Source: a virus. From it: a stretch of DNA of 58,887 bases. A program made the translations under genes and the position numbers. This document shows, in pieces, positions 1-52,073 of this stretch; position 1 is the first letter of the stretch, and each line of letters opens with the position of its first letter. Where the stretch lies: the IMG/VR virus record IMGVR_UViG_3300042900_000355, positions 1-58,887 of that record. One strand, 5' to 3'. The notes below the pieces were generated by a model. That model saw only the letters and a program-made list of their open reading frames with translations, searched no databases and was not told the origin of the DNA.

Positions 1-41
1 ATGTACTTTTTAGATATTGGTTGTGGTCTAAATCGATTCAT
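1..41 (-). CDS. N-terminus of a gene running off the left edge (partial)
   Basis: An ATG at 41 opens a frame that stays open to the window edge (13 codons, beginning MNRFRPQP). It overlaps the stop of the next upstream gene as ATGA, and that gene's GAGGAAG tail supplies a Shine-Dalgarno. The arrangement copies the coupled junctions of the following genes, so it is probably a real gene start. The product cannot be identified from 13 residues. Confidence 0.55.
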   Translation of the reverse strand, partial: MNRFRPQPISKKY

Positions 42-406
42 TCTTCAACTTCCTCTACGGGTTGATTGGGAATGTTTTCTGTATCACCATCTTGTGCAGG
101 TACAAAGCCCATGCCTAACATTGTTTCCCTTTCAAAAGGCGTGCAGTGAGGACGAAACACAAACAGTCTACAAGTGAGATTATCTTGGCTGTAGTAGATC
201 CTGTACCGAACCTGTTCTACGCCCAAAGCATCAGCCAGTTCCTGCGATGAGAATGTTTCAGGCCAAGACTCGTTCACACTGGCCCGGGTCTTTTCAAAGT
301 AAAAATCCTGCATACGTTGTACAGCAGAACCCCTGCCCCAAAATGCATTTTGCTTGCACCATGCAATCTTGCGGTCTAGCATTTCTGTTGTGATTTCATT
401 GGTCAT
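38..406 (-). CDS. Hypothetical phage protein, 122 aa
   Basis: No family recognised. The protein is soluble, has an aromatic-rich N-terminal half and ends in an acidic tail VEEVEE. The start at 406 overlaps the stop of the upstream FGVEE gene as ATGA, and the codons for that gene's GVEE tail provide GGAG eight bases before the ATG. It belongs to the minus-strand run of small, probably early genes. Confidence 0.8.
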   Translation of the reverse strand: MTNEITTEMLDRKIAWCKQNAFWGRGSAVQRMQDFYFEKTRASVNESWPETFSSQELADALGVEQVRYRIYYSQDNLTCRLFVFRPHCTPFERETMLGMGFVPAQDGDTENIPNQPVEEVEE

Positions 407-609
407 TCTTCAACTCCGAAATGTTCAATCACTGCATAATTCAATTCTTTTGCAGGGTCATCCATTTTTTTATTCTCCAGGTCCATGCCGGCTTGATGTG
501 TGATTTGAACCATCGCAATTTCACGCATCAGCAGGAGGGCGAACTTTTTGTAATCAAACTCAGGAGCCTGATAACATTCTACTGCCAGTTTTTCAATTCG
601 TCCGTTCAT
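403..609 (-). CDS. Small conserved phage protein with FGVEE C-terminus, 68 aa
   Basis: One of four small proteins here that end in a (H/Y/L)FGVEE-like tail (403, 606, 764 and 1892). It starts MNGRIEKLAVECY, like the MNERIQQLAEQA start of its neighbour. I recall this layout from many phage genomes, where it has no known function. Start and stop both overlap neighbours as ATGA, so translation is coupled along the cluster. Confidence 0.8.
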   Translation of the reverse strand: MNGRIEKLAVECYQAPEFDYKKFALLLMREIAMVQITHQAGMDLENKKMDDPAKELNYAVIEHFGVEE

Positions 610-767
610 TTTCCAACTCCGAAATGTATTTTAATCCACCGGTTAATCTCCGCTAATACCTCTTCGGTAACATCTTTGACCTCACCTGTTAGAACACAAG
701 GTTCACATTCCCAAGTGCAGATTGTTTTACTTTTTCCATCTTGCTCGACCACAACCGATAGTTTCAT
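606..767 (-). CDS. Small protein of the FGV-tail group, 53 aa
   Basis: This frame runs from ATG at 767 to TGA at 606. It begins MKLSVVVEQDGKSKTI and ends HFGVGK, a variant of the FGVEE tail. Both ends make ATGA overlaps with the flanking genes, and GGAG in the upstream gene's tail codons lies at Shine-Dalgarno distance. It fills what would otherwise be the only hole in this coupled cluster. CxxxCxxC-like cysteines occur mid-protein. Function unknown. Confidence 0.75.
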   Translation of the reverse strand: MKLSVVVEQDGKSKTICTWECEPCVLTGEVKDVTEEVLAEINRWIKIHFGVGK

Positions 768-946
768 TCTTCAACTCCGAAATATTTTTTGATAGCATTC
801 ATATGATAGTCTTCGTTGTAGCCACCGACATTTTTTACGGCCTGGATACATTCCTTAACAATCAACTCGGCGAAATATCCAATAGATTCTTCATCTTTGT
901 TTAAGAATCCAGCCTGTTCAGCAAGTTGTTGAATTCGTTCGTTCAT
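764..946 (-). CDS. Small conserved phage protein with FGVEE C-terminus, 60 aa
   Basis: The protein has an MNERIQQLAEQA start, a central FAELIVKEC helix and a KKYFGVEE end. It is the clearest member of the small family shared with 403-609 and 1892-2068. Its last codons (GGA GTT GAA GAA TGA) contain GGAG followed by the ATG of the next gene, so the conserved tail doubles as a ribosome-binding site. Function unknown. Confidence 0.82.
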   Translation of the reverse strand: MNERIQQLAEQAGFLNKDEESIGYFAELIVKECIQAVKNVGGYNEDYHMNAIKKYFGVEE

Positions 947-1152
947 ATCATATCCTTAAACAATTCTTTGAATGTGATTGCCTTGCCTGTGGTATAAACA
1001 ATGTCAAAACTATCATTGGTAATGTGATATTTGTTTCTGTCACAATTCACATACTCACCTTTAGCATCAGTATATACCTGACGCATTTGTGTAAAGGTAC
1101 TATCCACAACACCGTCGAGCATAACACGGGTGGTAATTTTACGCTTGTTCAT
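943..1152 (-). CDS. Hypothetical protein, 69 aa
   Basis: Not recognised. It has a basic N-terminus (MNKRKITTRV) and a compact, mixed-polarity sequence with no membrane segment. ATGA overlaps on both sides place it inside the coupled small-gene operon. Confidence 0.72.
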   Translation of the reverse strand: MNKRKITTRVMLDGVVDSTFTQMRQVYTDAKGEYVNCDRNKYHITNDSFDIVYTTGKAITFKELFKDMI

Positions 1153-1325
1153 TTTTTAGCCCAAGCAATATAACCACCGTTGGTGCCACTCCACGGACAA
1201 TATTGTTCCCATAGTGCCGTGGCTGTTTCGGGATTTTCTGTCATGAGTTTATCCACGGCGGGCCTCATTAGATATCCAGCATGACTCCAGTCATGATTTT
1301 TTAGTGCAGTTTCAAGTTCGTTCAT
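1149..1325 (-). CDS. Hypothetical protein, 58 aa
   Basis: Starts MNELETALKNHDW and ends WAKK. I chose the ATG at 1325, which overlaps the kinase stop as TGATG and has GGAG six bases upstream, over a TTG four codons earlier. Two Trp-rich stretches are visible. No family recognised. Confidence 0.72.
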   Translation of the reverse strand: MNELETALKNHDWSHAGYLMRPAVDKLMTENPETATALWEQYCPWSGTNGGYIAWAKK

Positions 1326-1786
1326 CACACTCTCCAAATTTCTTCAAAACCTTCCGACAAGTCGGGCTCTTCCCAGTCTTCAATCATGCGTTCAATCACC
1401 TCGGGTGGGATTGTTTTGCCCGGACGGCTGGCCAATCGTCGTGCCAATTCTTCTGGCTCGGGCGTGGCGAACACCACAGCAATGGCTGAGTATTCCGGCA
1501 ACATGCGAAACTTTCGAGCACGGCTGGCCCGAGTGGTGCTGGTCTGATCCCATATGATGTCGTGGCCATTGGCCTGTGCCACAAGCGCATGGTTGGTCAT
1601 CATGCGAACAGCGATGGGCATGTATTCTTCAAACACTTCTGAATAAGTCTTGCCTTCTCGCTTGGCATGATCTTCCACCCAGGGATCAGTACTGACCACT
1701 GGCAAGCCCAACGCCCAGATTTGATTTTTGATCCAGGTGCTTTTGCCTGATCCTGGCACTCCCACCAACATGTATAACTTAGGCAC
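1325..1786 (-). CDS. Polynucleotide 5'-kinase-type P-loop protein (PseT kinase domain only)
   Basis: A nucleotide kinase of the T4 polynucleotide kinase/zeta-toxin group, predicted to phosphorylate 5'-OH ends of RNA or DNA. The Walker A motif GVPGSGKST lies at about residues 9-17. It is followed by STDPW, IIWDQTSTTRASR (the strand and Asp used by these kinases) and RRLASRPGKTIPPEVIERM, which resembles the T4 PseT lid region. At about 153 aa it has only the kinase half; the HAD 3'-phosphatase half of PseT is absent. The GTG at 1786 is preferred over a longer hydrophobic extension because GGAG lies five bases upstream and the protein then starts like PseT. It overlaps the upstream 38-aa frame by 8 bases. 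Confidence 0.82.
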   Translation of the reverse strand: MPKLYMLVGVPGSGKSTWIKNQIWALGLPVVSTDPWVEDHAKREGKTYSEVFEEYMPIAVRMMTNHALVAQANGHDIIWDQTSTTRASRARKFRMLPEYSAIAVVFATPEPEELARRLASRPGKTIPPEVIERMIEDWEEPDLSEGFEEIWRV

Positions 1787-1895
1787 AATAACTCCAAAAA
1801 TATTGTGCAACGCCAAACACAAACACAGCCACACCAAACACAAACAGGGCAGGCTGTATCACATAGAATACCAAGAATGCTTCAAAATCATTCAT
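1779..1895 (-). CDS. Single-span membrane microprotein, 38 aa
   Basis: A short frame between two coupled genes. It starts with ATG overlapping the upstream stop as ATGA, behind the GGAG of that gene's GVEE tail. The product is MNDFEAFLVFYVIQ followed by a strongly hydrophobic segment rich in Val, Phe and Gly (FVFGVAVFVFGVA). It ends at TAA, inside the start region of the kinase. The fit of both junctions supports a real gene. It may be a membrane-acting host-takeover peptide; this is a guess. Confidence 0.6.
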   Translation of the reverse strand: MNDFEAFLVFYVIQPALFVFGVAVFVFGVAQYFWSYCA

Positions 1896-2068
1896 TCTTC
1901 AACTCCTAAATGTTGTTTGGTTATTTTGGCACATTCTTCAATAACCAACTTGGTGTATTTCTCCAATTGTGCAGGGGTAAGCATAGCCGATCCATAAGGT
2001 GCAGCCTTGACCACATCAACAGGTTGATTACGGGCTTGAGCCAATAGTTCAAACATTCGTTCGTTCAT
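1892..2068 (-). CDS. Small conserved phage protein with LGVEE C-terminus, 58 aa
   Basis: Starts MNERMFELLAQARNQ and ends KQHLGVEE, so it belongs to the same family as 764-946. An upstream in-frame start exists, but the ATG at 2068 overlaps the previous stop as ATGA and matches the MNER start of its paralogue. Function unknown. Confidence 0.8.
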   Translation of the reverse strand: MNERMFELLAQARNQPVDVVKAAPYGSAMLTPAQLEKYTKLVIEECAKITKQHLGVEE

Positions 2069-2334
2069 TTCAAATCTCCACGCAAGGTGTGCCACATCCG
2101 GGGATCAGTGCCCAAGTAGATGCGATACTTTTGATAATTGCGCCATTGGCTCAGTCTGTTCACGCCACGCTCAACCCAGTCAAACATGGCACTACGGAAC
2201 CACAAGGGATTTACAATGGCTATCAGCAAAGCCACAGCCACAGGCACAATCAGCACAGCCACAACCACCCAATGAAAGGTCATTGCACGATAATAACGGC
2301 CACCACCGGGCACCAGTTCAATTTCTTTACTCAT
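2065..2334 (-). CDS. Hypothetical membrane protein, 89 aa
   Basis: One clear membrane segment (about 25 hydrophobic residues, VVVAVLIVPVAVALLIAIV) sits in the N-terminal third, followed by a Trp- and Arg-rich soluble part. I chose MSKEIELV at 2334 because it forms an ATGA overlap with the upstream stop. Function unknown; a membrane location is the only safe inference. Confidence 0.75.
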   Translation of the reverse strand: MSKEIELVPGGGRYYRAMTFHWVVVAVLIVPVAVALLIAIVNPLWFRSAMFDWVERGVNRLSQWRNYQKYRIYLGTDPRMWHTLRGDLK

Positions 2335-3148: not shown

Positions 3149-3177
3149 ATTATAGCAAAACGGTGATTATTGGTCAA
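3149..3177 (-). promoter_or_regulatory. Strong sigma70-type promoter
   Basis: On the minus strand, TTGACC, 17 bp, TATAAT, then ACACACAT. The -35 overlaps the stop codon of the GIY-YIG gene. It drives the 110-aa gene at 2789-3121. Confidence 0.88.
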
Positions 3178-3503
3178 CCGTTTTGCTTCACGCGAACATC
3201 GGTGTTCAGCGCAGGTGTATACTTTTGTATTAACTCGCGCTCCAATTTGTGTGCGGCATCTTTGCCACGCACAATGTCCACAATAGCCACGTTCATTGCT
3301 TCCACGCCGTTTGTGCGAATTGCTTCGTACAGGTTCCAGGCTTTGTCTTCTGTGCGGCTACGGTAGATATGCTTGTTAACACGGCTACGAAGCGACATGT
3401 TGATTGTGCGCTGAGTTTTGGCGGTAATACCAATGTAGTACTCAAATCCAATCTGGATACAGTACACTATGTGGCTGCGATCAATACGTTTCTTTCTCAT
3501 CAT
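3174..3503 (-). CDS. GIY-YIG nuclease
   Basis: A GIY-YIG endonuclease domain. The IVY and YYIG strands lie within about residues 12-25 ([17 protein letters not shown]). The conserved Arg follows in SLRSRVNKH, and ELIQKY with ..ALNTD supplies the Glu/Asn end of the fold. At 109 aa it is a free-standing domain, as in several T4-like phages, where such proteins are homing-type or DNA-degrading nucleases. The -10 box of its promoter ends six bases before the ATG, so the transcript probably begins at the start codon, and no Shine-Dalgarno is present. Confidence 0.82.
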
Positions 3504-3648: not shown

Positions 3649-4731
3649 ATGACAGATTTATACCACCAAATTTATCAGGGAGAAATATTTCAAAAGAGTC
3701 AATGTATTTGGCATGAAAATACGCTCATGAATTTCTTTCGAAGCAATTTGTTATCACTTGGATATAAACCACTAAGCGACAATAATAAAGTTTATCAACG
3801 TGGCACACGCCAAGTTGTGATATGCCTGGTTGATGATTTTTCAACCTGTAGCACAAATCACAACACATCGTTACCGTATCTTTTTGATAAAGACACAGTA
3901 GTCATCACAGACAATTACATCACTGTCCCAACTCAATATCAAGTGTGTCAACTACCCCCTAGTTTTTTTGGCATATACAATCATACACCTTCTGATGCAA
4001 AATGGAATCCTGATAGACGTTTTAATTTTAGTGTAAACAGGTTGGATACTAAACGTATGTTGGTGCTATTAGAAATATGGAACCGTGTTATGTTAATGGC
4101 AGCTGACGGATTCACAGTTGACAATTTGGATTATATTAATTTTAATTGTTGGGCCTGGTCTGGCGATAACGGTTCAGTTAGTGGATTGAAAGAAAATTTT
4201 ACACAGCAATGGCAACAATTGGAATTGCATTATCAAGAAGTTTATCAACATGTATATGAAGACTTGTTACCACACATGCCGTTTTGTAATCATGATCTTG
4301 ATCACAAACAATCACATTTACAAGCCTGGGCTAATATTGTAATAGAAACTTACAGTTCGGATACCACTGTGGCCCTCAGTGAAAAAACGTTTAGAGCTTT
4401 GTGTTTGCCTGTGCCGTGGATTGTGTATGCGGGAAAACATACTGTGGCATACTTGCACAGTTTGGGATTTGATATTTTACATGACGCAATCAGCCATGAG
4501 TATGATGGTATGATTGTTAACAAGACTGCTGCCTATGGGGACAAAATGGTGGATTTTATCTTTGAAGGACATGATGCTGTTGAAAAGTTCAAAGCCATGC
4601 CGTGGCCTGAACTATCTCAACGCTGTGAACAAGCTGCACAACATAACCAAACCTTATTAGCTCAAATGCAATCCAACTGGCCTATAGATTTTGCCAACTG
4701 GTGGCCTAGTGTAATTGAAAAAATAAAATAA
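3649..4731 (+). CDS. Glycosyltransferase-like protein (GT10-like C-terminal motif), 360 aa
   Basis: The C-terminal half carries ETYSSDTTVALSEKTFRAL, then PWIVYAGKHTVAYLHSLGFD and EYDG. I associate this pattern (E-T...EKT.kAL...P.iv......L..LGF..EYD) with fucosyltransferase-like proteins common in phages. FNFSVNR at about residue 120 resembles the N-lobe Arg motif of that group. The donor and acceptor cannot be told. I chose ATG 3649 over TTG 3628. The stop overlaps the next start as TAATG, so it is coupled to the asparagine-synthetase homologue. A diverged relative is at 38596-39669, in the other plus-strand island. Confidence 0.65.
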   Translation: MTDLYHQIYQGEIFQKSQCIWHENTLMNFFRSNLLSLGYKPLSDNNKVYQRGTRQVVICLVDDFSTCSTNHNTSLPYLFDKDTVVITDNYITVPTQYQVCQLPPSFFGIYNHTPSDAKWNPDRRFNFSVNRLDTKRMLVLLEIWNRVMLMAADGFTVDNLDYINFNCWAWSGDNGSVSGLKENFTQQWQQLELHYQEVYQHVYEDLLPHMPFCNHDLDHKQSHLQAWANIVIETYSSDTTVALSEKTFRALCLPVPWIVYAGKHTVAYLHSLGFDILHDAISHEYDGMIVNKTAAYGDKMVDFIFEGHDAVEKFKAMPWPELSQRCEQAAQHNQTLLAQMQSNWPIDFANWWPSVIEKIK

Positions 4732-6266
4732 TGTGCGGCATATTGTTTGTGAAAAGTCAGCGGCCTCTTGGCATTGACCTACACCTACAAGCAGTTGATA
4801 AAATACATGCTCGTGGCCCAGACTTCACACATTACCAGCATCATAACAATATTTTTATAGCACAGACTGTGTTACATATCACAGGTGAAGATGAGTTTTA
4901 TCACCGACCACGATCAGACTTTTTGGCTTATAATGGTGAAGTTTATAACTATCGTTGGTTTGGCCGATACACTACAGACACAGAATTAGTGTATCGCACT
5001 GTGCGAGAACAAAACTACAAGAAGATTCCTTACTTTGAAGGGCCTTGGGCTTGGGTGTATACTGATTTTGAATCAGTGAGATTTGCAACAGATCCACAAG
5101 GCGAGCGTTGTTTGTATCGATATCAAGATGATAACATTTTGATTGTGACCAGTGAAGTATCGGCAATCTTGTGTTATACACAGCCCAAAGTTCATGTTGA
5201 CGCATGGAGTCAAAAGCACTGGCCTACCATACGTCGCACACCTTATGAAGGCATTGAACGCTGTGAACCAGGTCGATTGTATACCGAAACTGGCTTGAGT
5301 TTTCAGCTTGACAGCATATTTGACTGGGTCCACGCACCACAGTCTATGAGTGACTCAGAAGCTCAAGAAGAATTTGATTGGATATTTGACAAGGTCATAG
5401 CAGACATGCGCCCCACAGAACCTGCAGGATTGACCTTTAGTGGTGGCGTGGACTCTGGAATCATCCTGGCTGCCATGCCGGAGTTTGCAGGATTGTACAC
5501 CACAGTGTGTGAAGGCAAAGACACTGTGAGCATGAGAATTAGAGATTTCTTGACTGATCAACAATGTCAAAAACTCATTGAGTTGCCCATGACCGAACGT
5601 GACTGGGCGCAGGACCACATTGACATCATTGAGTGTTCACAAATGCCTGTGCAGAGTTGGAGTTTTGTTGGCCAATGGCACATTGCTCATCACTGTCAAC
5701 AACGTATCTTGTTCACTGGCATAGCCGCTGATGAATTATTTGGCGGATATCCTGCGTATCACAACATGGCATTTGACATCAAAACATCCGCAAGTCCTTA
5801 CAGTTGTTTTGATCCATCAGACACAGATAGTCAACGTCTTTGGGATCAGTGTGTGTCTGCTTCACAAGGGCATGCAGGTGCTGCCACACTGCTCATGGAT
5901 TATCTTGTGCAGATCACAGCAGTTGATGCACGTGGAGTAGACACCATGACCATGGCACACAGCATAGAACCGCGTTCACCTTTTATGCATCCTAAGATTA
6001 TAAAGTTTGCTCTCAATTTGCCTTGGCATTTGAGACAAGGCAAACCATTATTGCAGAACAAGTTTTTAAAAAAATGGCCTAGAGATTTGCTATTGCCCAA
6101 ACAAGGATTTGCAGGACACTGCAACGACAGCTTGCCTTGGATGGGAGTGAATGTTCCTGCATCGTCAGATCGATCTATACAGTGGAAACAGATTCAGTCA
6201 GCTACTTTTTTACAATATTGTGGTATTGATTCCAGTCAATCAACACATCAAACCATTCAGGAGTAA
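4731..6266 (+). CDS. Asparagine synthetase (glutamine-hydrolysing)-like amidotransferase
   Basis: Two-domain amidotransferase of 511 aa. The N-terminal class II glutaminase begins at Cys2 (MCGILFVKS) and has RGPD near residue 33 and YNGEVYNY near 68, residues that bind glutamine in AsnB. The C-terminal synthetase domain has the PP-loop TFSGGVDSG near 238 and TGIAADELFGGYP near 330, then the EPRSPFMHP and KQGFAG motifs. The family activates a carboxylate with ATP and transfers ammonia; free aspartate or a peptide or sugar carboxylate could be the substrate. Placement beside a glycosyltransferase-like gene suggests surface or capsular chemistry. The 3' end overlaps the convergent gene by 65 bases. 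Confidence 0.88.
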   Translation: MCGILFVKSQRPLGIDLHLQAVDKIHARGPDFTHYQHHNNIFIAQTVLHITGEDEFYHRPRSDFLAYNGEVYNYRWFGRYTTDTELVYRTVREQNYKKIPYFEGPWAWVYTDFESVRFATDPQGERCLYRYQDDNILIVTSEVSAILCYTQPKVHVDAWSQKHWPTIRRTPYEGIERCEPGRLYTETGLSFQLDSIFDWVHAPQSMSDSEAQEEFDWIFDKVIADMRPTEPAGLTFSGGVDSGIILAAMPEFAGLYTTVCEGKDTVSMRIRDFLTDQQCQKLIELPMTERDWAQDHIDIIECSQMPVQSWSFVGQWHIAHHCQQRILFTGIAADELFGGYPAYHNMAFDIKTSASPYSCFDPSDTDSQRLWDQCVSASQGHAGAATLLMDYLVQITAVDARGVDTMTMAHSIEPRSPFMHPKIIKFALNLPWHLRQGKPLLQNKFLKKWPRDLLLPKQGFAGHCNDSLPWMGVNVPASSDRSIQWKQIQSATFLQYCGIDSSQSTHQTIQE

Positions 6267-7283: not shown

Positions 7284-8309
7284 TTACAAAGTAGGTTGGT
7301 TGTGTTGTGCTCGGAACCGTTCGGGCCATACTTCAGTCACTTGTTTTTGTTGCAACCGATCCGGCCAGTGACCATTGCCACACATATTTTTGCAAATCTC
7401 CATGGGGTTGGTTTCCCAACGATCACTCACTCGATGAAATAATTCAAGAGCATGATCAAGTCCGTTACTGCTGTGATATTGAGAAAAATCTCCTAGAACT
7501 TCTTCAATTTCTTTTTGCGTAGAAGGCATGGCAGGACCGTATGCATTTTCGTTGATAAAACAACATGGCATATAAAGTCCGTTGGCATTTAGAAACAGTT
7601 CATCAAATTGCTTGCCTATGCAATTGATTTTGACAGTTCCGGTGCCTTGATTTTCTTTCCAAGTTTTGGGTTGCTTGAGCCACTGAATTGGCCTGATAAG
7701 AGTTCGTTGACTGACTTTGACTCCGAATGAAAAAAATCCCATGCTCTTGGCCAATTTACGAGCCTTTAACACTTGATGTTCGTTGTGTTCAAACACAATC
7801 ATATCCCACACAGCCACTCCACCTGCATCAATGAATGCCTGAGCATTCTCCATGATCTTTTTCCACACAGTGCGCCTGCGATATATGTGATTGGTATCTT
7901 CAATGCCATCCAAACTAAAAGTCACTGCACTGCGTCGTTCCGGATTGTATTGAAAAAATTGTGCAAGCTCGCGCCACCATTCTTTATTTCTTGTACTGCC
8001 ATTGGTATGCAGTGCAAAGGTAACAGTGGGATTTACTTCTCTAAACCATCTGAGTATGTCAGTGCAATCTTTGGCCATGGTTGGTTCGCCATGTGTGCCT
8101 TCAAATTTAACATGCTTGGCTTGTTTTAACCATTCATGATCTATCAAAGTTTTTATCACATCCAAGGTCAATGTGTTTTGAGGCAGGTTGGGATTTTCTA
8201 CAATCCCAAGTTCAGGATCATCATCTAAATATCTAGAACACTGCGGACAGGCTGCGTTGCATGCGGTTGACAACTCAATGTTGAGTTTGGATGGCCATTT
8301 GTCGAACAT
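7284..8309 (-). CDS. Radical SAM protein with C-terminal cysteine cluster (SPASM/twitch-like)
   Basis: A 341-aa radical SAM enzyme. CNAACPQC at about residues 17-24 binds the SAM [4Fe-4S] cluster, FEGTHGEP replaces the usual GGEP strand, and HTNGS and FSLDG follow as in the TIM barrel. C-terminal cysteines (NCIGK, MPCCFIN, CKNMCGNGHW) look like an auxiliary cluster domain. Relatives modify peptides or carry out other C-H chemistry; the substrate is unknown. It resembles the plus-strand enzyme at 36664-37728, so the two may be paralogues. No precursor peptide was identified nearby. Confidence 0.85.
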   Translation of the reverse strand: MFDKWPSKLNIELSTACNAACPQCSRYLDDDPELGIVENPNLPQNTLTLDVIKTLIDHEWLKQAKHVKFEGTHGEPTMAKDCTDILRWFREVNPTVTFALHTNGSTRNKEWWRELAQFFQYNPERRSAVTFSLDGIEDTNHIYRRRTVWKKIMENAQAFIDAGGVAVWDMIVFEHNEHQVLKARKLAKSMGFFSFGVKVSQRTLIRPIQWLKQPKTWKENQGTGTVKINCIGKQFDELFLNANGLYMPCCFINENAYGPAMPSTQKEIEEVLGDFSQYHSSNGLDHALELFHRVSDRWETNPMEICKNMCGNGHWPDRLQQKQVTEVWPERFRAQHNQPTL

Positions 8310-13045: not shown

Positions 13046-13918
13046 TTATTTGCCCCAGCCATTGCCCCAGAGATCCACATGCAATCTTGGGCTATAATTA
13101 TAACCACGAGCCAGTGCCCAGTCTGCCACATTCACTCGGTTGCGTTCGTATGGAGTGACCACACCGCCTTGTGGCATCACATAGGTAACACCACGGAAAC
13201 CTGCTTCACGATATGCAGCCACAGCACGATCAACTTCTTCAAAGTGTGCCAGTGTTTCTACCACAAATTTTAAATATACTGTGCCATGCATTTGATAGTC
13301 TGCCACAATCTCGGGCTTGATAGCATCCGACCACGATTCACCTGATGCTGACAGCTTGGGACTTACTGAAAAAGTAATTTCTCGTGTGGGCACGGCCCCT
13401 AGTGCAGGGCGTCGCCACTCGTGCAAAAATGTTCGAAATGCTGGCTGTAACTTTTGAGTGCCATTGGTTTCAAATGTGATGTTCTTCAAATCACCCATGG
13501 CAGATTGACTCAGCAGTTCTTCATAGCCACGCTGCCAACCCAACAGCGGTTCACCACCTGTGATCACAAGATGCACATCATTGCCGTTGTCTTGTTGCCA
13601 GTGATGATTGGGTGTAAGAACCAACATCTTTTCAATCAGTTCATCATGTGTGAGTGTGTGACTTAGTTCCTTAAATGCAGGATGCCATGAAGCGTAGCTG
13701 TCACATCCGGTGTTCACAAGCGGCAGTTCAAGAAAATCCTTGTACAGGTGTATGTTCTTTGCCACTTCGTCTGCTTCAGTAGACTGCACGCCTGGAGCGC
13801 AGCCAAAGCCCGAACAAGTGAAGTTGCATCCGTATGTGCGTAAGAACACACTAGGAACACCAACAAAGCGTCCTTCGCCCTGTGCAGAATAAAATAACTC
13901 ACTAACTTTTAATTTCAT
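13046..13918 (-). CDS. queE: 7-carboxy-7-deazaguanine synthase QueE
   Basis: Radical SAM enzyme converting 6-carboxytetrahydropterin to 7-carboxy-7-deazaguanine, the ring-contraction step of 7-deazaguanine synthesis. SELFYSAQGEGRFVG at the start is the QueE signature, VFLRTYGCNFTC gives Cys31 and Cys35, and LVITGGEPLLG gives the SAM-binding GGEP. Family members have CxxxCxxCDSxxTW; here the CDSxxxW piece occurs at residue 72 (CDSYASW), after a roughly 36-residue insertion, so the third cluster Cys is probably Cys72. At 290 aa it is longer than usual (about 210-240). It works with FolE and QueD in this window and presumably feeds DpdA. Confidence 0.88.
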   Translation of the reverse strand: MKLKVSELFYSAQGEGRFVGVPSVFLRTYGCNFTCSGFGCAPGVQSTEADEVAKNIHLYKDFLELPLVNTGCDSYASWHPAFKELSHTLTHDELIEKMLVLTPNHHWQQDNGNDVHLVITGGEPLLGWQRGYEELLSQSAMGDLKNITFETNGTQKLQPAFRTFLHEWRRPALGAVPTREITFSVSPKLSASGESWSDAIKPEIVADYQMHGTVYLKFVVETLAHFEEVDRAVAAYREAGFRGVTYVMPQGGVVTPYERNRVNVADWALARGYNYSPRLHVDLWGNGWGK

Positions 13919-17563: not shown

Positions 17564-18190
17564 TTAGTTAGGTTGTTTAATATCTTCTACTATTTTTTTC
17601 TGCAAATGATTCAATAGCAAACCGTAAGCAGGCAGGATAACCGCAAGACTCACAATGACTTTGCTGATTGAATTGTTGGTTGCAACAATGTGCCAGTTGG
17701 CAGCCATAAACTCATTGGCACCACCGGCAAATGCAGTAAAGAAGAACACATAGGTATCAAAGAATGTACTAACAACCGAACTCAATGCAGGAGCAATCCA
17801 CCAAGTGGCATACTTCTCACGAATGTATTGGAACACATATACATCAAGCAAGTTGCTCACAAAGTATGCAACACCTGAACCAAGACCAATACGGAAGGCT
17901 ACGGAGTCAGGGGCACCGCCCAGTTTGACCACTGCCATTGACACAATGATAGCAGGAATAAATGCCAATGCAATCACAGCACGACCAGTTTGTTTGCCCA
18001 ACATTCGCACAGTCAAGTCGGTCAACACAACCACTAGTGGGAATGTAAACGCAGCCGCTGCCAATGGTGCACCAAACACTGAGAATTTGAATTGCACAAT
18101 GTAGTTGCTGATAGCAATAATAATGATATGTGCCAGCATGAGCTTGTAAGCCAATGCACGGTCAACGCCATTTAAGATTCGATCTAACAT
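17564..18190 (-). CDS. yhhQ: Queuosine precursor transporter YhhQ-like (VUT family)
   Basis: A 208-aa integral membrane protein with about six hydrophobic segments. The family signature is visible in AAAAFTFPLVVVLTDLTVRMLG near residues 45-65 and NLLDVYVFQYIREKY near 115. YhhQ proteins import preQ0/preQ1. It follows QueD by 17 bases and ends before a strong terminator, so the two form a unit. Carrying both an importer and biosynthetic enzymes suggests that 7-deazaguanine supply limits phage DNA synthesis. Confidence 0.87.
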   Translation of the reverse strand: MLDRILNGVDRALAYKLMLAHIIIIAISNYIVQFKFSVFGAPLAAAAFTFPLVVVLTDLTVRMLGKQTGRAVIALAFIPAIIVSMAVVKLGGAPDSVAFRIGLGSGVAYFVSNLLDVYVFQYIREKYATWWIAPALSSVVSTFFDTYVFFFTAFAGGANEFMAANWHIVATNNSISKVIVSLAVILPAYGLLLNHLQKKIVEDIKQPN

Positions 18191-18207: not shown

Positions 18208-18714
18208 TTAAACGAATAGATCTTCCATCCATTCGCGATGGCCTTCTCGGAAAGCCATGTTGCTCTGTGTTTCGCGCACTTCCACACGATAGCACCAGAG
18301 ACGCTCTGCTTCACCTGGACCCCATAGGTCCGGAATGTAAACACCGTTAACATACTTGTACAGCATGTCTGCCAGTCCTTCACAGCCCAGTCTAGGCAGG
18401 ACGGTGAGTTTGGCCATTTTCTTTTGTTGCAAGAGTTTGTAAGTTTCCAGCTCTGGATCATCAGCAGACACCAGCAAGGTGTGATCAAACTGATCTTCCA
18501 ATTGCTTTTTGAGTTCTTTGAGACCGCCATAGTCAGCGGCCCAGTTGCGCACATCCAAATTGTCTGTGCCAAAGTAGAACTTCATTGAGAAACTGTAACC
18601 GTGAATTAAGTTGCAGTGGCTGTCAGCACGCCATTGACGGTATGCGCAGGGAAAAGCATCATGATACTCTTTGGTGCTGGTGTACTTGTATTGTACTGGT
18701 TGATTTGTTGCCAT
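18208..18714 (-). CDS. queD: 6-carboxytetrahydropterin synthase QueD-like
   Basis: T-fold enzyme converting dihydroneopterin triphosphate to 6-carboxytetrahydropterin. AFPCAYRQWRADSHCNLIHG carries the catalytic Cys and zinc His region in variant form (HGYS instead of HGHS). NWAADYGGLKELKKQLEDQF matches the D.g.lk..l...lDH strand, with FDHTLL following, and VEVRETQSN gives the pterin-binding Glu. At 168 aa it is longer than E. coli QueD (about 120), as in other phages. It is first in the QueD-YhhQ unit with an extended -10 promoter at 18733-18761. Confidence 0.86.
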   Translation of the reverse strand: MATNQPVQYKYTSTKEYHDAFPCAYRQWRADSHCNLIHGYSFSMKFYFGTDNLDVRNWAADYGGLKELKKQLEDQFDHTLLVSADDPELETYKLLQQKKMAKLTVLPRLGCEGLADMLYKYVNGVYIPDLWGPGEAERLWCYRVEVRETQSNMAFREGHREWMEDLFV

Positions 18715-22274: not shown

Positions 22275-22388
22275 TTAAATCTCCGCCAAGTGGTACTGAG
22301 AGTAGGGATAGGTTGCTTGCAACCATTCCAGTAATCCTTCTTCAACTGGAAATTGAATGTTACCAGTTTTGTTAGATATAATAATCAT
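22275..22388 (-). CDS. Small protein coupled to FolE, 37 aa
   Basis: A frame from ATG 22388, overlapping the FolE stop as ATGA, to TAA immediately before the next ATG. The product begins MIIISNKTGNIQFPVEE and ends YHLAEI. Its stop codon abuts the next start and GGAG in its last codons serves the next gene. It therefore fills the gap between FolE and the 108-aa gene exactly. Function unknown. Confidence 0.65.
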   Translation of the reverse strand: MIIISNKTGNIQFPVEEGLLEWLQATYPYSQYHLAEI

Positions 22389-23077
22389 CGTGGTGCAAAG
22401 TCCTGTTGTAGTTTGATGTTGTCAAAGAATTCTTTCTTCACGCTTTGGTCTGACTTAAACGCACCGTGTAAAACTGTGGTTTGTGTAAGACTAGAGTGTG
22501 CCATGATACCGCGATTCTCACAACAACCATGGGTAGCTTGAATATAAACTGCGACATCTTTTGACCCGGTCGCAAATTCAATTTCGCGAGCAATATCCAT
22601 ACATAGTTCTTCTTGGAGAGTCCCACGTCTTGCACACCACTGCGCGATCCGCGTGTACTTGGATAGACCAATGAGCACGGGTCCAGCAATGATTCCAATA
22701 TAAGCCACACCCGTAACAGGTTGGTGATGATGGCTACACATGCTCTTAAGCTCTGAACGCACCACCAACATACCTTCGTACGCTCCTTCTGTGTCATTTG
22801 GAAACGCTGTAGCATTAGGGCTCTCCTCATAACGGCCAGCCATAATTTCATTGAAGTACATTTTGGCAAGACGCTGTGCGGTACCTTTTGAGTTTGGATC
22901 ATTTTCCCTGTCGATTAGTAATACATCAAGCACTTGTTCAAATGCGTTGGTAGCTTCGTTGATTAAACTGTGTTTGGTCTCTTCATCAACATACTCACTG
23001 ATGTTGTCTCCTGCCCAGAATCTTTTGCCTTCTGCCTTCATCTGTTCGCGAAGGACTTGTGATAAGTGTTTTTCCAA
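22385..23077 (-). CDS. folE: GTP cyclohydrolase I FolE
   Basis: 230 aa. Converts GTP to dihydroneopterin triphosphate, the first step of both folate and 7-deazaguanine synthesis. SMCSHHHQPVTGVAYIGI carries the zinc Cys and the catalytic His residues, IGLSKYTRIAQW the substrate strand, and IQATHGCCENRGI the second zinc Cys (CCENRG). Normal family length. Preceded by a promoter at 23118-23146 and followed by the operon that runs to FkbM. Its product would be the substrate of QueD in this window. Confidence 0.93.
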   Translation of the reverse strand: MEKHLSQVLREQMKAEGKRFWAGDNISEYVDEETKHSLINEATNAFEQVLDVLLIDRENDPNSKGTAQRLAKMYFNEIMAGRYEESPNATAFPNDTEGAYEGMLVVRSELKSMCSHHHQPVTGVAYIGIIAGPVLIGLSKYTRIAQWCARRGTLQEELCMDIAREIEFATGSKDVAVYIQATHGCCENRGIMAHSSLTQTTVLHGAFKSDQSVKKEFFDNIKLQQDFAPR

Positions 23078-26753: not shown

Positions 26754-27283
26754 TTGATTACTTCGTCCTTTGTGTATTGATCCCATGAGGTAAATGTTTT
26801 TCTATCCAGCAAATTATGCAGGCTGTGACACCATACTCCGGGGTTGGTTGCTTTGAAATCTTTGTCGTCCAGTTTGATTGTGGTATTGTAACCTAGCAGT
26901 TTGACGTAAGGTAGTTTTACAGATATCATTGGGATAAATTGTGACTGTTCGCACAAACTGCCTTCAGCTAGGCCTTCCACAGCACTGACATCAAGATCTA
27001 GTGTACACCAATATCCTTTGTCCAACCACGGTTGAATCATGCGTTCCCACGCAGTCCAGGCTTCGGCATCATTGATAGTGGGATTTGGAAAACTTTGATT
27101 GGCACCAAAATAGATGTGTGTGATTGGTAGTTTTGATCGTGCATCAATTTCGCCACGCTTCCAGTCAATATCCGATGCAGTTTGCAATCCTACCACAAAC
27201 AATGTGCGGTGTCCAGCAACAGGGCTGGCCTCAACTTCTGTACCTACAAAGAAGTTGGTGTCTGCGTGTCCTTGGCGATTCAT
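26750..27283 (-). CDS. Conserved protein encoded next to DpdA, 177 aa
   Basis: Begins MNRQGHADTNFFVGTEVEAS, with HRTLFVVGLQTASDI, THIYFGANQSFPN, YWCTLDLDVSAVEGL and PMISVKLPYVKLLG. The alternating strands suggest an alpha/beta barrel or sandwich, but I cannot assign a family. Coupled as ATGA to DpdA upstream and to the T-fold candidate downstream, which points to a part in the 7-deazaguanine system. Confidence 0.72.
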   Translation of the reverse strand: MNRQGHADTNFFVGTEVEASPVAGHRTLFVVGLQTASDIDWKRGEIDARSKLPITHIYFGANQSFPNPTINDAEAWTAWERMIQPWLDKGYWCTLDLDVSAVEGLAEGSLCEQSQFIPMISVKLPYVKLLGYNTTIKLDDKDFKATNPGVWCHSLHNLLDRKTFTSWDQYTKDEVIK

Positions 27284-28830
27284 TTGATTTGCTCACTTTC
27301 AAGCAGTTGTAATGCTTCTAATTGTAACTGGTCTTCGGGTTCTGTGTCAACTTCTGGTTGTTCGAAAGAGAACAGTGCGTTGAATTGTGTGCGAGCGTTT
27401 TTGGTCTTCTTACCTTTGAATCCTCGTGTGCCCACAATCTCCATCCAATAACTATCATATGTTTCAATAATAGCGTCAGCAGTTTCTCGATCTGGTGCGG
27501 CAAAGATTGCTTCCACAATGTCTTCAAATCGAGCATAATCGCCTGTGCTACGGCGCATCATGGCAGGATGTTCACCTGCATCAAATCGTCGATTGGCTTC
27601 TTGCACAGCAGTTAGATGCATCCAAACATTGTGCCCCATCAGCAGTGCATATGAGAATGAATCCCATGATGTCTTGCCTTCTTTGCCAATCTTATTTAGG
27701 TCGCCGGGCTTGTAAATGCAAATATCTTTCATCTGAAACAAGTCACTTAGTGGGCTGTCTTCCCAGCGTGGATAGATTCCATCTGCTACTACGCCAGTTG
27801 ACCACTTGCGTGTGTCTAGGCTGTATTTTTTATCGTCGGCACTAGGACCCATGCGATACGACCACTTTGAATCATGTTCAAATACATTTTCGTAATACAC
27901 TTGTCCGTTGGCTGTGGCAAGGAATGGACTGGCACAATCAAAGGAGATAGTAAAAGCCGGGTTAACGTATTTTCTAACTGCTCGTTGAATTACGGTCAGT
28001 AGCACAGCCCATTCCAACTTTGATGTACCCAAGAAGTGCATCCAATCATGCACACCCTCTTGCAACAAATTATCATAACGCAAGGCTACCAGTCGTCTAA
28101 GCACCAAGTGAACATCGCACATGTTCTGTCCGCCCATTGACCAACCATCAAAGTGCGTGTCTGGATACTTGACAGGATCACAGTATTCTTTCATGGTTTC
28201 GTACCATTGGTCCGCGCTACTATGATTGTCGCCTTGCAGTACATTTAAAATCCTGGTGCCACCATTACGAATACCCTTACGATGTTTCATAAAGTATTCG
28301 TTGTTGAACTTAGTAGCATCTACTGCTTCTTGCAGTGTGGTAATTTGACAAGCCTTGCTGGCTTTCTTGTCATGAATGACCCAGGTTGGAATATCAAGTG
28401 TCATGCAGTAATCAGAAACGTTATCCAGCCAGTTAAGCACAAGCTCTCGTTTCTTTTGAGCTTTGGCACAACCCGAGTTGGCCTTCCAATCACCTTCCCA
28501 CAGGCCCTTGGCAATCTGGAAACCACCTGAATCTCCCAGAAGAAATGTGCCAGGCTCTCGGTTTCGTACCATGTCTTCCGACCAGTCTTGTTTTGAGAGA
28601 TCGAGATTGGCATGGCCTCCAGACGCAAGTGACCAACGATACGGAAATAAAGCCTTGGTGGAGTTGAGCCAATTAAGCTGTTCCATATCTGTAAGGCCCT
28701 GTGGAAACCGTGCGGGATCTACATATTGTTCATTTCTTTGCTTGCCCACAAATGTGGAATAGAACCCGCTGATGGCCGGAAGGAACACGGCGTAGTCCGA
28801 TTGCTTGGTAGTTAAGTTGTCTTGTGTCAT
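27280..28830 (-). CDS. dpdA: DpdA-like tRNA-guanine transglycosylase homologue (DNA 7-deazaguanine insertion)
   Basis: 516-aa TGT-superfamily protein. FLLGDSGGFQIAKG carries the Asp-Ser-Gly-Gly-Phe-Gln substrate pocket, SDYCMTLDIPTW and GWSMGGQ follow the barrel, and LGTSKLEWAV and SFDCASPF give the later strand with a conserved Asp. The C-terminal zinc site (CxCxxC) of tRNA enzymes is not seen. This and the length fit DpdA, which swaps guanine in DNA for a 7-deazaguanine base. The modification shields phage DNA from restriction. ATGA overlaps with a radical SAM gene upstream and the 177-aa gene downstream. The clamp promoter at 30569-30597 drives the operon. Confidence 0.85.
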   Translation of the reverse strand: MTQDNLTTKQSDYAVFLPAISGFYSTFVGKQRNEQYVDPARFPQGLTDMEQLNWLNSTKALFPYRWSLASGGHANLDLSKQDWSEDMVRNREPGTFLLGDSGGFQIAKGLWEGDWKANSGCAKAQKKRELVLNWLDNVSDYCMTLDIPTWVIHDKKASKACQITTLQEAVDATKFNNEYFMKHRKGIRNGGTRILNVLQGDNHSSADQWYETMKEYCDPVKYPDTHFDGWSMGGQNMCDVHLVLRRLVALRYDNLLQEGVHDWMHFLGTSKLEWAVLLTVIQRAVRKYVNPAFTISFDCASPFLATANGQVYYENVFEHDSKWSYRMGPSADDKKYSLDTRKWSTGVVADGIYPRWEDSPLSDLFQMKDICIYKPGDLNKIGKEGKTSWDSFSYALLMGHNVWMHLTAVQEANRRFDAGEHPAMMRRSTGDYARFEDIVEAIFAAPDRETADAIIETYDSYWMEIVGTRGFKGKKTKNARTQFNALFSFEQPEVDTEPEDQLQLEALQLLESEQIK

Positions 28831-36330: not shown

Positions 36331-36626
36331 GATGATGGTATTTCCAATGTTATTTGATCTTCGTGTATTGCAGCATTTTTACTGGCTACTCGCATGTTTC
36401 TTATTTTTAATTTGCTGCCACACGGTTCCACCAGTTCATATTTAATTTTGTACAATCCTGGAGGTGCTTCAATTGCTATCACTTCTTCTAAGTAATAGTC
36501 TTTGCCATTCCAGATCCATGATCTTTCTGTAAACAACTCGTCATTTACGTACAATCTATAGCGAGTGTCATTGCCATCCCACTTGCAATAGACATCACAA
36601 TGAACTTGAACTGATTTGGTCTGCAT
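36327..36626 (-). CDS. Small beta-rich phage protein, 99 aa
   Basis: I start it at MQTKSVQVHCDVYCKWDG (36626), because a TAAATATC motif sits directly before this ATG; the longer frame would read through the divergent promoter. The sequence looks like a beta-sandwich (YRLYVNDELFTERSWIWNGK; then YKIKYELVEP). It shares design with 53135-53572, a small virion-type beta domain. Function unknown. Confidence 0.75.
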   Translation of the reverse strand: MQTKSVQVHCDVYCKWDGNDTRYRLYVNDELFTERSWIWNGKDYYLEEVIAIEAPPGLYKIKYELVEPCGSKLKIRNMRVASKNAAIHEDQITLEIPSS

Positions 36627-36630
36627 TAGA

Positions 36631-36658
36631 TATTTAGTCAAATATACAGCTATAAATA
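36631..36658. promoter_or_regulatory. Divergent late-promoter-like pair
   Basis: An inverted repeat GATATTTA/TAAATATC (36629-36636 and 36653-36660) puts TAAATATC facing both ways. On the minus strand it is two bases before the ATG at 36626. On the plus strand (TATAAATA at 36651-36658) it is five bases before the ATG at 36664. It lies between the virion-type operon and the plus-strand island. Confidence 0.62.
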
Positions 36659-36663
36659 TCACA

Positions 36664-37728
36664 ATGTTAAAACTATCAGAAATTCGTCGATTGCACATTG
36701 AATTGACCACAAGATGCAATGCTAGATGCCCCATGTGCATGCGAAACTATAGAGGATTAGAATACAATTCTGGATATCCGCTGTGTGAACTGTCATTGGC
36801 AGATTTCAAACACATTGTTACTCCTGAGTTGTTGGCACAATTGACTCAGGACGAAGCACCTGTCAATGGACTGATACCAAAAATGTTTACATTTAGGGGT
36901 GTTGAATTCAATGGCAATCTTGGTGATTTTGCATCAGCTCGAGATGCTGTAGAAATAGTTGAATATATTGCTGAACATAACGTTCCAGTTCGAATCAACA
37001 CCAATGGCAGTTTAAGAAATTCAGCTTGGTGGAGTAGACTGGCCTTGCCCAATGTCACAGTGGGATTTGCTATTGACGGCATGAGTGACACTCACAAATT
37101 ATATAGACAAGACACAGACTGGCACAGAATTATTGAACATGCACAAGCACTAATTCAAGCAGGAGGTCGGGCTGTGTGGAGATTTGTACCGTTTGACCAC
37201 AATCGTCATCAAGAACAAGAATGCCGACAGCTGGCTCAAAAATTGGGGTTTTTTGGATTTGACAACATATACGATGGGCGAGACCATGGACCAGTATACA
37301 CTAGGAACGGCGAATTCAGTCACACTATTGGGCCTGCGCAACCCGGAAATGCGCCACCTATTGCAGCGTTATTAGAAAGTCATATCACCTGGTACGATGC
37401 CAAAACTTATCGCTCACACAAAGATGTTCCAGATCTCACAATGAATTGTATTCACAAACAAAATCGAGAAATATACATTGCCGCTGATGGCAGTGTGTAT
37501 CCATGTTGCTTTTTAGGGTTTTATCCACACACCATGAGTCATCCAGGCAACAAGGAACTGGCGCCCATGGTACAAGAAAACAATGCATTGCAGTATCCAT
37601 TGGAACATTGCTTGGCTTGGTTCGAAAGTGTAGAACAAGCATGGAGCAATCCCAGCATTGCCGAAGGCAGACCATATCAGTGTGTTAGCACTTGCGGAAA
37701 AACAGCCTCTGCTGTGGCTACTCTATAA
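36664..37728 (+). CDS. Radical SAM protein with C-terminal cysteine cluster, 354 aa
   Basis: CNARCPMCMRN at about residues 17-27 is the SAM cluster motif, RINTNGSLRN and FAIDGMSD follow as in the paralogue at 7284-8309, and C-terminal cysteines (NCIHKQ, YPCCFLG, CVSTCGK) form a SPASM-like cluster. The WGxL-type Trp pair (SAWWSRL) is also shared with 7284-8309. I choose ATG 36664, preceded by TATAAATA, over an upstream frame start. It is first in the second plus-strand island. Substrate unknown. Confidence 0.84.
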   Translation: MLKLSEIRRLHIELTTRCNARCPMCMRNYRGLEYNSGYPLCELSLADFKHIVTPELLAQLTQDEAPVNGLIPKMFTFRGVEFNGNLGDFASARDAVEIVEYIAEHNVPVRINTNGSLRNSAWWSRLALPNVTVGFAIDGMSDTHKLYRQDTDWHRIIEHAQALIQAGGRAVWRFVPFDHNRHQEQECRQLAQKLGFFGFDNIYDGRDHGPVYTRNGEFSHTIGPAQPGNAPPIAALLESHITWYDAKTYRSHKDVPDLTMNCIHKQNREIYIAADGSVYPCCFLGFYPHTMSHPGNKELAPMVQENNALQYPLEHCLAWFESVEQAWSNPSIAEGRPYQCVSTCGKTASAVATL

Positions 37729-50903: not shown

Positions 50904-52073
50904 TTATAAAGACTCGGATTTTTTCCAGGCCTCATGTAGTTTAGGCAAGCACGTGGTCCAATCTAAATTGCGTCTAGAATCAATCATTTCAAGATGTCTT
51001 TGCCAACCTTTGTTATCCTGGGCATTGGGAGATTTTTCTATTATACTGCGAATCGTGGAGTGGACATAGTTATGCCCAGCATATTTTTCCATCCAAACTT
51101 GTTTTAGTTTTTCAGAACTGTACTCCAATGCTAAAATTCCGTAGCAGGGATGAATTGCAAATCCTGACATTTTTTTGTAAGTTTGGCGCATATTCTTAAA
51201 CCAATTGTAAGTGTCTTCGGCAATGTCAATATTGTACACACCCAATACAAAGGCCACGTTAAAACTCACAACAGGTATGTTTTGTTCATGCCACCAACAA
51301 ATATTTTGTTCAACAGTTTCCCAGCTCAGGGGATTTCTAATGTATTCAAATGCTGATCCAGTGCCATCAATGCTGAAATTCACCACTAGGGATTTACACC
51401 GGGCCGCCAACTCTACAAACTCCTGTGACGGTCTAATACTACCATTGGTATTTAATGATAGATTCAATTGAGAAATAGTACCAATTTGATCAATTTTTCT
51501 TAAAAACTTCAAGGGCTCTTTGCTCAACATGGGTTCACCGCCGTTGAAATAAAGGCTTGTTAATTGAGATACATCAATGGATTCCCAGGCAGAGTTGTGC
51601 CTGGTGGCGTTAGTTACTCGCACATCAATGATTACGCCATGTGCCGCATCCTCTGCTGCCCAGGCACTACTAAAGTGTGAACTGCACTGAATGCAACGAG
51701 CATTACAAATGGGATCCACATTCCAGTCTAATTTGGTAAGAGTTGGTCGATTCAGATTTACAGCAACTGAGTTAAACTGTTGAATTGCACTGTCTCTTAA
51801 ACTGAAGTTTTTGGGATTATTATCACAACGATCACAACCAGGCACCAATTGACGTGATCTAACTAACTCACGCTGTGATTGGAGATATAAGTCATTATCA
51901 AAGTCGATTGTATCTGTTTCTGGGCCAAGAGTATTGACACAGCATGCGGATATTTTTACTTTGTCTTGATTGACTTTTTCCACATACATTCCGTTAAAAA
52001 TTAACGGGCAGTAGTAAGGATTATCGGTTTGATCGTTCGTCAATGTAATCTTCTGCGATGGGTTGATTTTCAC
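50904..52073 (-). CDS. Radical SAM protein with N-terminal twitch-like cysteines (permuted order), 389 aa
   Basis: Cysteines come first: YYCPLIFNGMYVEK, ISACCVNTLG and PGCDRCDNNPKN lie within the first about 90 residues, resembling a SPASM/twitch tail at the front. The radical SAM motif CNARCIQCSSH follows at about 124-134, then YFNGGEPMLSK (GGEP) and FSIDGTGS. Same order as 28827-29822. The GTG at 52073 lies inside the upstream gene's end (53-base overlap); a TTG ten codons later is an alternative start. Substrate unknown. Confidence 0.82.
   Translation of the reverse strand: MKINPSQKITLTNDQTDNPYYCPLIFNGMYVEKVNQDKVKISACCVNTLGPETDTIDFDNDLYLQSQRELVRSRQLVPGCDRCDNNPKNFSLRDSAIQQFNSVAVNLNRPTLTKLDWNVDPICNARCIQCSSHFSSAWAAEDAAHGVIIDVRVTNATRHNSAWESIDVSQLTSLYFNGGEPMLSKEPLKFLRKIDQIGTISQLNLSLNTNGSIRPSQEFVELAARCKSLVVNFSIDGTGSAFEYIRNPLSWETVEQNICWWHEQNIPVVSFNVAFVLGVYNIDIAEDTYNWFKNMRQTYKKMSGFAIHPCYGILALEYSSEKLKQVWMEKYAGHNYVHSTIRSIIEKSPNAQDNKGWQRHLEMIDSRRNLDWTTCLPKLHEAWKKSESL

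Follow-up and report, generated by a model that had tools for sequence, protein, structure and literature searches.

Why do several small genes, packed one against the next in a viral genome, end in almost the same word, and does that word serve the protein that it closes or the gene that it precedes? The question is raised by the window analysed here, i.e., the whole of a 58,887-bp IMG/VR virus record, on the minus strand of which short overlapping ORFs form a chain from position 2717 down to 38 (Table 1). A preliminary description had proposed that a C-terminal FGVEE doubles as the Shine-Dalgarno (SD) motif of the next gene, and that it may persist partly because it is a portable ribosome-binding site for gene cassettes.

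Results

Tail words in a chain of overlapping genes

The word GGAGTTGAAGAATGA occurs exactly three times on the minus strand of the window (403-417, 764-778 and 1892-1906), and the same strand carries two near-matches, GGAGTTGGAAAATGA at 606-620 and GAAGTTGAAGAATGA at 38-52. These five matches within two mismatches compare with 0.26 expected from dinucleotide shuffles, and none of 100 shuffles reached five. All five are ORF ends at which the TGA overlaps the ATG of the next ORF, so that the last codon contributes the A of this ATG and the stop its TG. In the four genes with GGAG (W, Z, Y and X), 7 nt lie between GGAG and the ATG. In the window's own large genes, only 17% of the glycine codons are GGA.

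Table 1. ORFs of the minus-strand chain, listed from its start to its end
ORF	Position	Strand	Length (aa)	Protein features	DNA end	Remarks
P	2331-2717	minus				ORF at start of chain
M	2065..2334	minus			GGAGATTTGAAATGA	End gives GGAG 7 nt before the ATG of W, in a different reading frame
W	1892..2068	minus	58	Family-like; ends QHLGVEE	GGAGTTGAAGAATGA
38-aa ORF	1779..1895	minus	38	MNDFEAFLVFYVIQPALF...		Downstream of the tail of W; its ATG overlaps at 1895
K	1325..1786	minus		P-loop kinase-like (Pfam AAA_33)		GTG start
C	1149..1325	minus	58	...YIAWAKK		Directly joined to B in L257, L267 and L268
D	943..1152	minus	69			Cassette between C and Z; follows an X homologue in L016
Z	764..946	minus	60	Family member; MNERI..., YFAELIVKEC, YFGVEE	GGAGTTGAAGAATGA	ATG of Y overlaps at 767
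Y	606..767	minus	53	Unrelated body; ends IHFGVGK	GGAGTTGGAAAATGA	ATG of X overlaps at 609
X	403..609	minus	68	Ends AVIEHFGVEE	CATTTCGGAGTTGAAGAATGA (403-423)	GGAG at 414-417; end overlaps the ATG of B (A at 406)
B	38..406	minus	122	MTNEITTEML...VEEVEE; unrelated to the family	GAAGTTGAAGAATGA	Follower runs off the window

The claims that four small genes end in the word or its variants and that the next ATG overlaps the stop held for all four genes (three ends are exactly GGAGTTGAAGAATGA and the fourth is GGAGTTGGAAAATGA, all on the minus strand). The GGAG-ATG distance, given as eight bases, is corrected to 7 nt. The label FGVEE held in part, since the ends are HLGVEE, YFGVEE, HFGVGK and HFGVEE (W, Z, Y and X, respectively) and it is thus literal in only two of four, Z and X. 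In addition, the protein encoded at 606-767 (Y) is no obvious relative of the other three.

Several other ORFs of the window were noted by eye only. Some resemble QueE, a queuosine-precursor transporter, QueD, FolE and a TGT/DpdA-like enzyme (13046-13918, 17564-18190, 18208-18714, 22385-23077 and 27280-28830 (minus)), a resemblance that would suggest 7-deazaguanine DNA modification in the phage. An asparagine-synthase-like ORF and several radical-SAM-like ORFs (4731-6266 (plus), 7284-8309 (minus), 36616-37728 (plus) and 50904-52073 (minus)) would represent an unusual metabolic load for a phage. The ORF at 3174-3503 (minus) looks like a GIY-YIG nuclease, and a GIY-YIG-like ORF ending in HFGVEE is present in L183.

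Conservation of the word as DNA

Two degenerate scans of IMG/VR for His-Phe-Gly-Val-Glu-Glu-stop returned more than 120 stretches with TGA, many contigs contributing more than one, but no more than 59 with TAA. The codons of 210 unique GVEE-TGA tails were GGA (208), GTT (199), GAA (209) and GAA (210), compared with background frequencies of 23% for GGA, 37% for GTT and 76% for GAA in the long ORFs of the same loci, the background glycine codons being GGT (45%), GGC (25%) and GGA (23%). HFGVEE-TGA spelled with GGC, GGG or GGT was found in only 21 stretches in all of IMG/VR. GGCGTCGAGGAATG is a synonymous spelling of the wild-type GGAGTTGAAGAATG.

A sample independent of the tail was obtained by picking members by the internal motif FAELIVxEC, which was then sought in all collected loci, including those that had been fetched by their tails. 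Of the 276 members sampled in this way, 248 end in FG-x, with a tail glycine encoded by GGA in 233, GGG in 11, GGT in 4 and GGC in none. The preference for GGA in the tail is high at every G+C level, while the background remains at 16-32% at every level.

In aligned pairs with 45-65% identity, the proportion of synonymous differences at shared residues was lowest in the tail (9.6%), intermediate in the internal motif (24%) and highest in the remainder of the gene (39%), i.e., synonymous change in the tail is about four times rarer than elsewhere in the same genes. By residue, the values for tail versus rest were 13 versus 63% for glycine, 2 versus 20% for glutamate and 4 versus 38% for histidine; no constraint on the phenylalanine codon of the tail was found in the synonymous differences of these pairs. 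GGAG is matched in its constancy by the TTGAAGA spacer and by the CAT codon, which exceeds the need of simple SD pairing. It should be noted that the aligned pairs are not phylogenetically independent, that related sequences, capped scans and possible assembly chimeras affect the counts, and that the sample definitions differ slightly among analyses, so that each percentage is tied to its own analysis.

Spacing, downstream starts and relaxation

When the tail is shorter, the ATG usually moves by 3 nt and the 7-nt spacing is kept: in tails with two residues after FGV (FGVxx), the ATG lies at -1 relative to the stop (157 cases), in tails that are one residue shorter (FGVE/FGVK) it lies at +2 (TGATG or TAATG, 23 cases), and GGAG is 7 nt from the ATG in both. 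For 15 more one-residue tails an ATG at -1 (4 nt) was listed first, and some of these also carry an ATG at +2. Tails ending in FGVES terminate in TCG-TGA, giving an overlapping GTG, in places GTGAACGAACG.

In the tail-independent sample, an overlapping start (-1 or +2, counted as ATGA or TRATG) followed 87% of the FG-tailed members when an ATG and an ORF of at least 30 aa were required, and 93% when any start and at least 20 aa were accepted; with the same two cut-offs, such a start followed 23% and 29% of the other ORFs when these had at least 150 aa, and 28% and 35% when they had 55-149 aa. At junctions with an overlapping ATG, GGAG was found at exactly 7 nt in 167 of 213 family cases; in other genes, the corresponding counts were 12 of 263 and 30 of 703. 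According to the preliminary description, its idea would be refuted by tails that are equally common where no gene follows or by free use of synonymous codons without GGAG. Both checks were negative, as shown by the 87-93% of FG-tailed members with an overlapping start versus 23-35% of other ORFs, and by the tail glycine codons (GGA 233, GGG 11, GGT 4, GGC 0).

Among members ending in GVEE, non-consensus tail codons made up 10 of 656 (1.5%) where an overlapping start was present and 7 of 52 (13.5%) where it was absent (Fisher p=8e-5), and the tail glycine was not GGA in 1 of 164 versus 2 of 13 (p=0.014). Tails without an overlapping start still mostly have GGA (11 of 13), and thus inheritance also plays a part. 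It has to be added that a first, cruder comparison of GGA usage with and without a start (ATG, ORFs of at least 35 aa) revealed no difference (194 of 206 versus 39 of 42), because many of the tails classified as lacking a start are followed by a GTG or TTG start (GAATCGTGAACGAACG) or by a short ORF. The relaxation became significant only after restriction to GVEE tails, a looser ORF limit and the use of four tail codons; this refined definition was chosen after the first result had been seen and has not been repeated with an independent sample, and several of the thirteen start-less GVEE tails are near-orthologues.

Copies in other frames and on unrelated proteins

The word is also present in both of the remaining reading frames and in non-coding DNA: the upstream gene does not read it as GVEE in 32 of 283 copies. 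Some of these are read as ...TFRS-stop, some as ...ELKNE, and some follow directly after a stop, as in CAATTTCAATAAGGAGTTGAAGAATGA. At GGAG-N7-ATG sites outside the FG frame, the spacer was TTGAAGA 42 times and the next commonest spacer 4 times. Several copies start exactly at GGAG and lack the usual CATTTC. Frameshifts, either real or introduced by assembly, could possibly account for some of the off-frame copies, but not for those without CATTTC.

Sixteen tailed ORFs had no similarity to the family once the last 12 residues were removed. One of them, L135:4541 (tail GGTGTAGAG), was rejected as an unrelated carrier, as it is probably a chance match. Excluding this ORF, about 15 unrelated proteins end in the word, and Y of the window (HFGVGK) is one more unrelated carrier. 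The portability that the preliminary description had proposed was thus borne out, with regard both to unrelated proteins and to other frames.

Cassette exchange at the start codon

In related genomes, entire cassettes have been added, removed or exchanged, with breakpoints precisely at the ATG. The followers of TGA-ending tails were 175 other genes, 63 family members and 28 genes with a family-like start only, i.e., 175 of 266 ATGA tails precede genes outside the family. Where the same upstream gene has different followers, identity is high through ATGA and near background from the next base; where the same follower has different upstream genes, identity reaches back about 26 nt, which comprises the word and its flank, and no positional conservation was seen upstream of about -26.

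ORF B, with 63 homologues, was used as a fixed point. It is found directly after the FGVEE tails of many different genes, and elsewhere after other genes. The gene order is P-M-W-K-C-D-Z-Y-X-B in the window, P-M-W-K-C-D-Z-Y-other-B in L261, P-M-family-K-C-B in L257 and P-M-W-Z-B in L263, and L016 has X-D. Comparison of the gene orders thus revealed that C and B, which are neighbours in three loci (Table 1), are separated in the window by four genes, each bounded by an overlapping ATG.

The end of ORF B itself varies. Although ORF B is unrelated to the family, it ends in VEGVEE (= GGAGTTGAAGAATGA) in several genomes and in EEVEE or EEIEE in others (window 38-406 (minus), L027:7314, L257-L319).

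Mosaic genes and conserved DNA blocks

In 47 of 56 pairs of family members with N-parts at least 80% identical, the C-parts were unrelated (<30%); conversely, among 81 pairs whose C-parts share at least 80% identity, 51 had unrelated N-parts. The point at which the parts switch is the DNA-conserved middle block TTCGCCGAGTTGATTGTnnnGAATGT. In the internal motif, GCC accounts for 84% and GAG for 87% of the respective codons, compared with a background of 24% for GAG, and this use of GAG opposes the local preference for GAA. A start block, ATGAACGAACGAATT, is similarly constant, with a sharp onset at the ATG. Between the blocks, family members differ almost completely. Mosaics that switch at short constant blocks indicate that recombination is really involved, and some of the constancy of the tail is probably due to it. 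Block recombination does not explain the spacing, the relaxation and the off-frame copies.

Examples of mosaics that switch at the KFAELIVxEC block are L096 and L004, as well as L104, L137 and L191. The internal block TTCGCCGAGTTGATTGT and the tail have TTCG and GAGTTGA in common. GAGTTGA was rejected as a Chi-like or otherwise general motif, because it is not over-represented outside the blocks (326 occurrences versus 306 expected; the mask was applied only to the strand read, leaving the reverse complements of blocks unmasked, with little effect on the count). In the absence of a general enrichment, the likeness of block and tail remains unexplained.

The protein family

In an alignment of 62 members, which were chosen for carrying these motifs, M1, N2, F25-V30, E32, C33, F56 and G57 are invariant. 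In the tail, F, G and V show (nearly) no variation among the aligned members. The two final positions can hold E, K, Q, S or L, and the start nevertheless keeps its place. An AlphaFold model comprises three helices (mean pLDDT 84), the last of which ends at F56 and is followed by GVEE. As inferred from this model, Gly57-Val58 may cap the last helix, which would account for a protein-level constraint on F-G-V, with the final two residues left to drift. It is thus likely that these residues also have a protein reason, and GGN-GTN would offer an SD motif once GGA is chosen.

No consistent match to Pfam or PHROGs was found among the 62 members, and neither a sequence nor a fold match to the PDB was found for the family proteins. 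The isolate-phage collection contained no relative of the window protein and only one weak partial match to a second member, among prokaryote genomes the word occurred in only six MAG contigs, and peptide strings of the family were absent from the literature searched.

Discussion

The explanation that we regard as likely is that of a dual-purpose word, which is both a C-terminus and a portable translation initiation region of the next gene. The nucleotide conservation, the preferred spacing between GGAG and ATG, the association with downstream starts, the unrelated and off-frame copies and the exchange breakpoints at the ATG are seen in the sequences themselves. It is inferred from sequence alone that initiation or reinitiation is truly driven by the word, and that its constancy is due to selection for this function together with recombination at the word; initiation has not been measured, and the hosts and their anti-SD sequences are undetermined. 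As protein, CATTTCGGAGTTGAAGAATGA would close the last helix (His-Phe-Gly-Val, with Gly at the helix end) and add two acidic residues; as mRNA, it would place a GGAG SD core 7 nt before an ATG that shares bases with the stop. The ribosome that ends one gene would be placed to start the next, whatever that gene is, and therefore a cassette would restore initiation for whatever gene follows. It should be noted that GGAG is only a 4-base core, and that the internal motif and the start are also conserved as DNA, and therefore recombination or recent spread could yield part of the pattern without any ribosome role. Nevertheless, the idea of a portable ribosome-binding site is, in the absence of translation measurements, supported by codon constancy, spacing, overlapping starts, relaxation, and unrelated carriers and off-frame copies.

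The most serious rival, for which we see as many reasons to accept as to doubt it, is that the word is primarily a recombination joint: the blocks at the start, middle and end would let phage recombinases swap pieces, and the SD match would be what a joint at a gene boundary must preserve. This would fit the mosaic structure of the family genes (47 of 56 and 51 of 81 pairs, with the switch at TTCGCCGAGTTGATTGTnnnGAATGT), the tail word shared by cassettes that differ on both sides and the DNA conservation of a middle block that has no known ribosome role. However, a joint does not predict that the ATG shifts to keep 7 nt in tails one residue shorter, that the word relaxes where no gene overlaps, that synonymous change is lower in the tail than in the middle block or that units start exactly at GGAG, and GAGTTGA is not over-represented outside the blocks. 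As a recombination joint and an initiation word are compatible, our confidences in the two overlap.

Two further explanations fare less well. Cassettes might have spread so recently that their ends have had no time to change; the DNA conservation of the internal and start blocks and the retention of GGA in most tails without a following gene would agree with recent common ancestry, but the aligned pairs have diverged synonymously by 39% elsewhere versus 9.6% in the tail, and members differ almost completely between the blocks, making ancestry as the sole cause unlikely. Least credible is conservation of the protein combined with codon bias, i.e., that HFGVEE is needed and the phage prefers GGA, GTT and GAA. 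The (near) invariance of F, G and V and a modelled helix end at F56 followed by GVEE, which fits a helix-capping Gly-Val, speak for it; against it, only 23% of background glycine codons are GGA (16-32% at every G+C level), unrelated proteins and other frames also carry the word, and the start stays put although the two final residues can be E, K, Q, S or L. In its pure form, amino-acid conservation is contradicted by the codon usage and the off-frame copies.

The dual-purpose word has relatives among known systems. SD motifs inside the upstream gene of overlapping pairs and termination-reinitiation have been described for coli pairs (Huber et al. 2019, PMC6728339), and adaptation of stop and spacer to the SD of the neighbour by Palleja et al. 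(2009, PMC2784483, citing Eyre-Walker). The ATGA/TGATG overlap, the SD in the upstream 3' end and the adapted stop and spacing are common to those pairs and the present case; however, there each pair has its own solution, whereas here one constant word serves many downstream genes, and this word, a conserved C-terminus, moves both with a gene family and outside it. Among phages, the closest parallel to a constant word with an SD motif is the Start Associated Sequence (SAS) of Cluster K mycobacteriophages, with a 13-bp consensus GGGATAGGAGCCC and, at about half of the sites, 17-bp inverted repeats upstream (ESAS; PMC3203893). It is likewise a short word with an SD core before the starts of many gene families, conserved beyond rRNA pairing, but the word here is GGAGTTGAAGAATG and not GGGATAGGAGCCC, and PMC3203893 does not describe the SAS as a C-terminus shared by a family of proteins. 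In integrons, gene cassettes are likewise small genes that can be exchanged, that share one orientation and that rely on the array for expression, but they move by integrase at attC/attI, whereas the shared joint here is a coding word overlapping a start codon. Mosaic lambdoid phages have boundary or linker sequences, short homologies at module borders that permit exchange; in contrast, a genome has several copies of the present word, which is part of the coding sequence and brings initiation signals with it. Each single ingredient is known, and the present case differs in their combination, in which a conserved C-terminus would be both a transferable initiation region and a recombination joint.

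A bolder reading, which at present could equally well prove right or wrong, is that of a natural standard-connector system: N- and C-modules would be joined at the middle block and flanked by the start and tail blocks, and recombination at the three blocks would build new genes and operon orders, with the products kept in frame and translated.

The findings indicate how small genes can be added to, taken out of and reordered within a tightly packed phage operon while translation is preserved, since each C-terminus itself contains the connector to the next gene. They offer a concrete case of a protein end that has apparently been shaped by the initiation signal of its neighbour. They also provide a 21-nt tag with which a large, so far undescribed gene family can be searched for; its occurrence in this analysis was essentially confined to contigs of uncultured viruses. 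The word would be a natural counterpart to standardised DNA-assembly joints.
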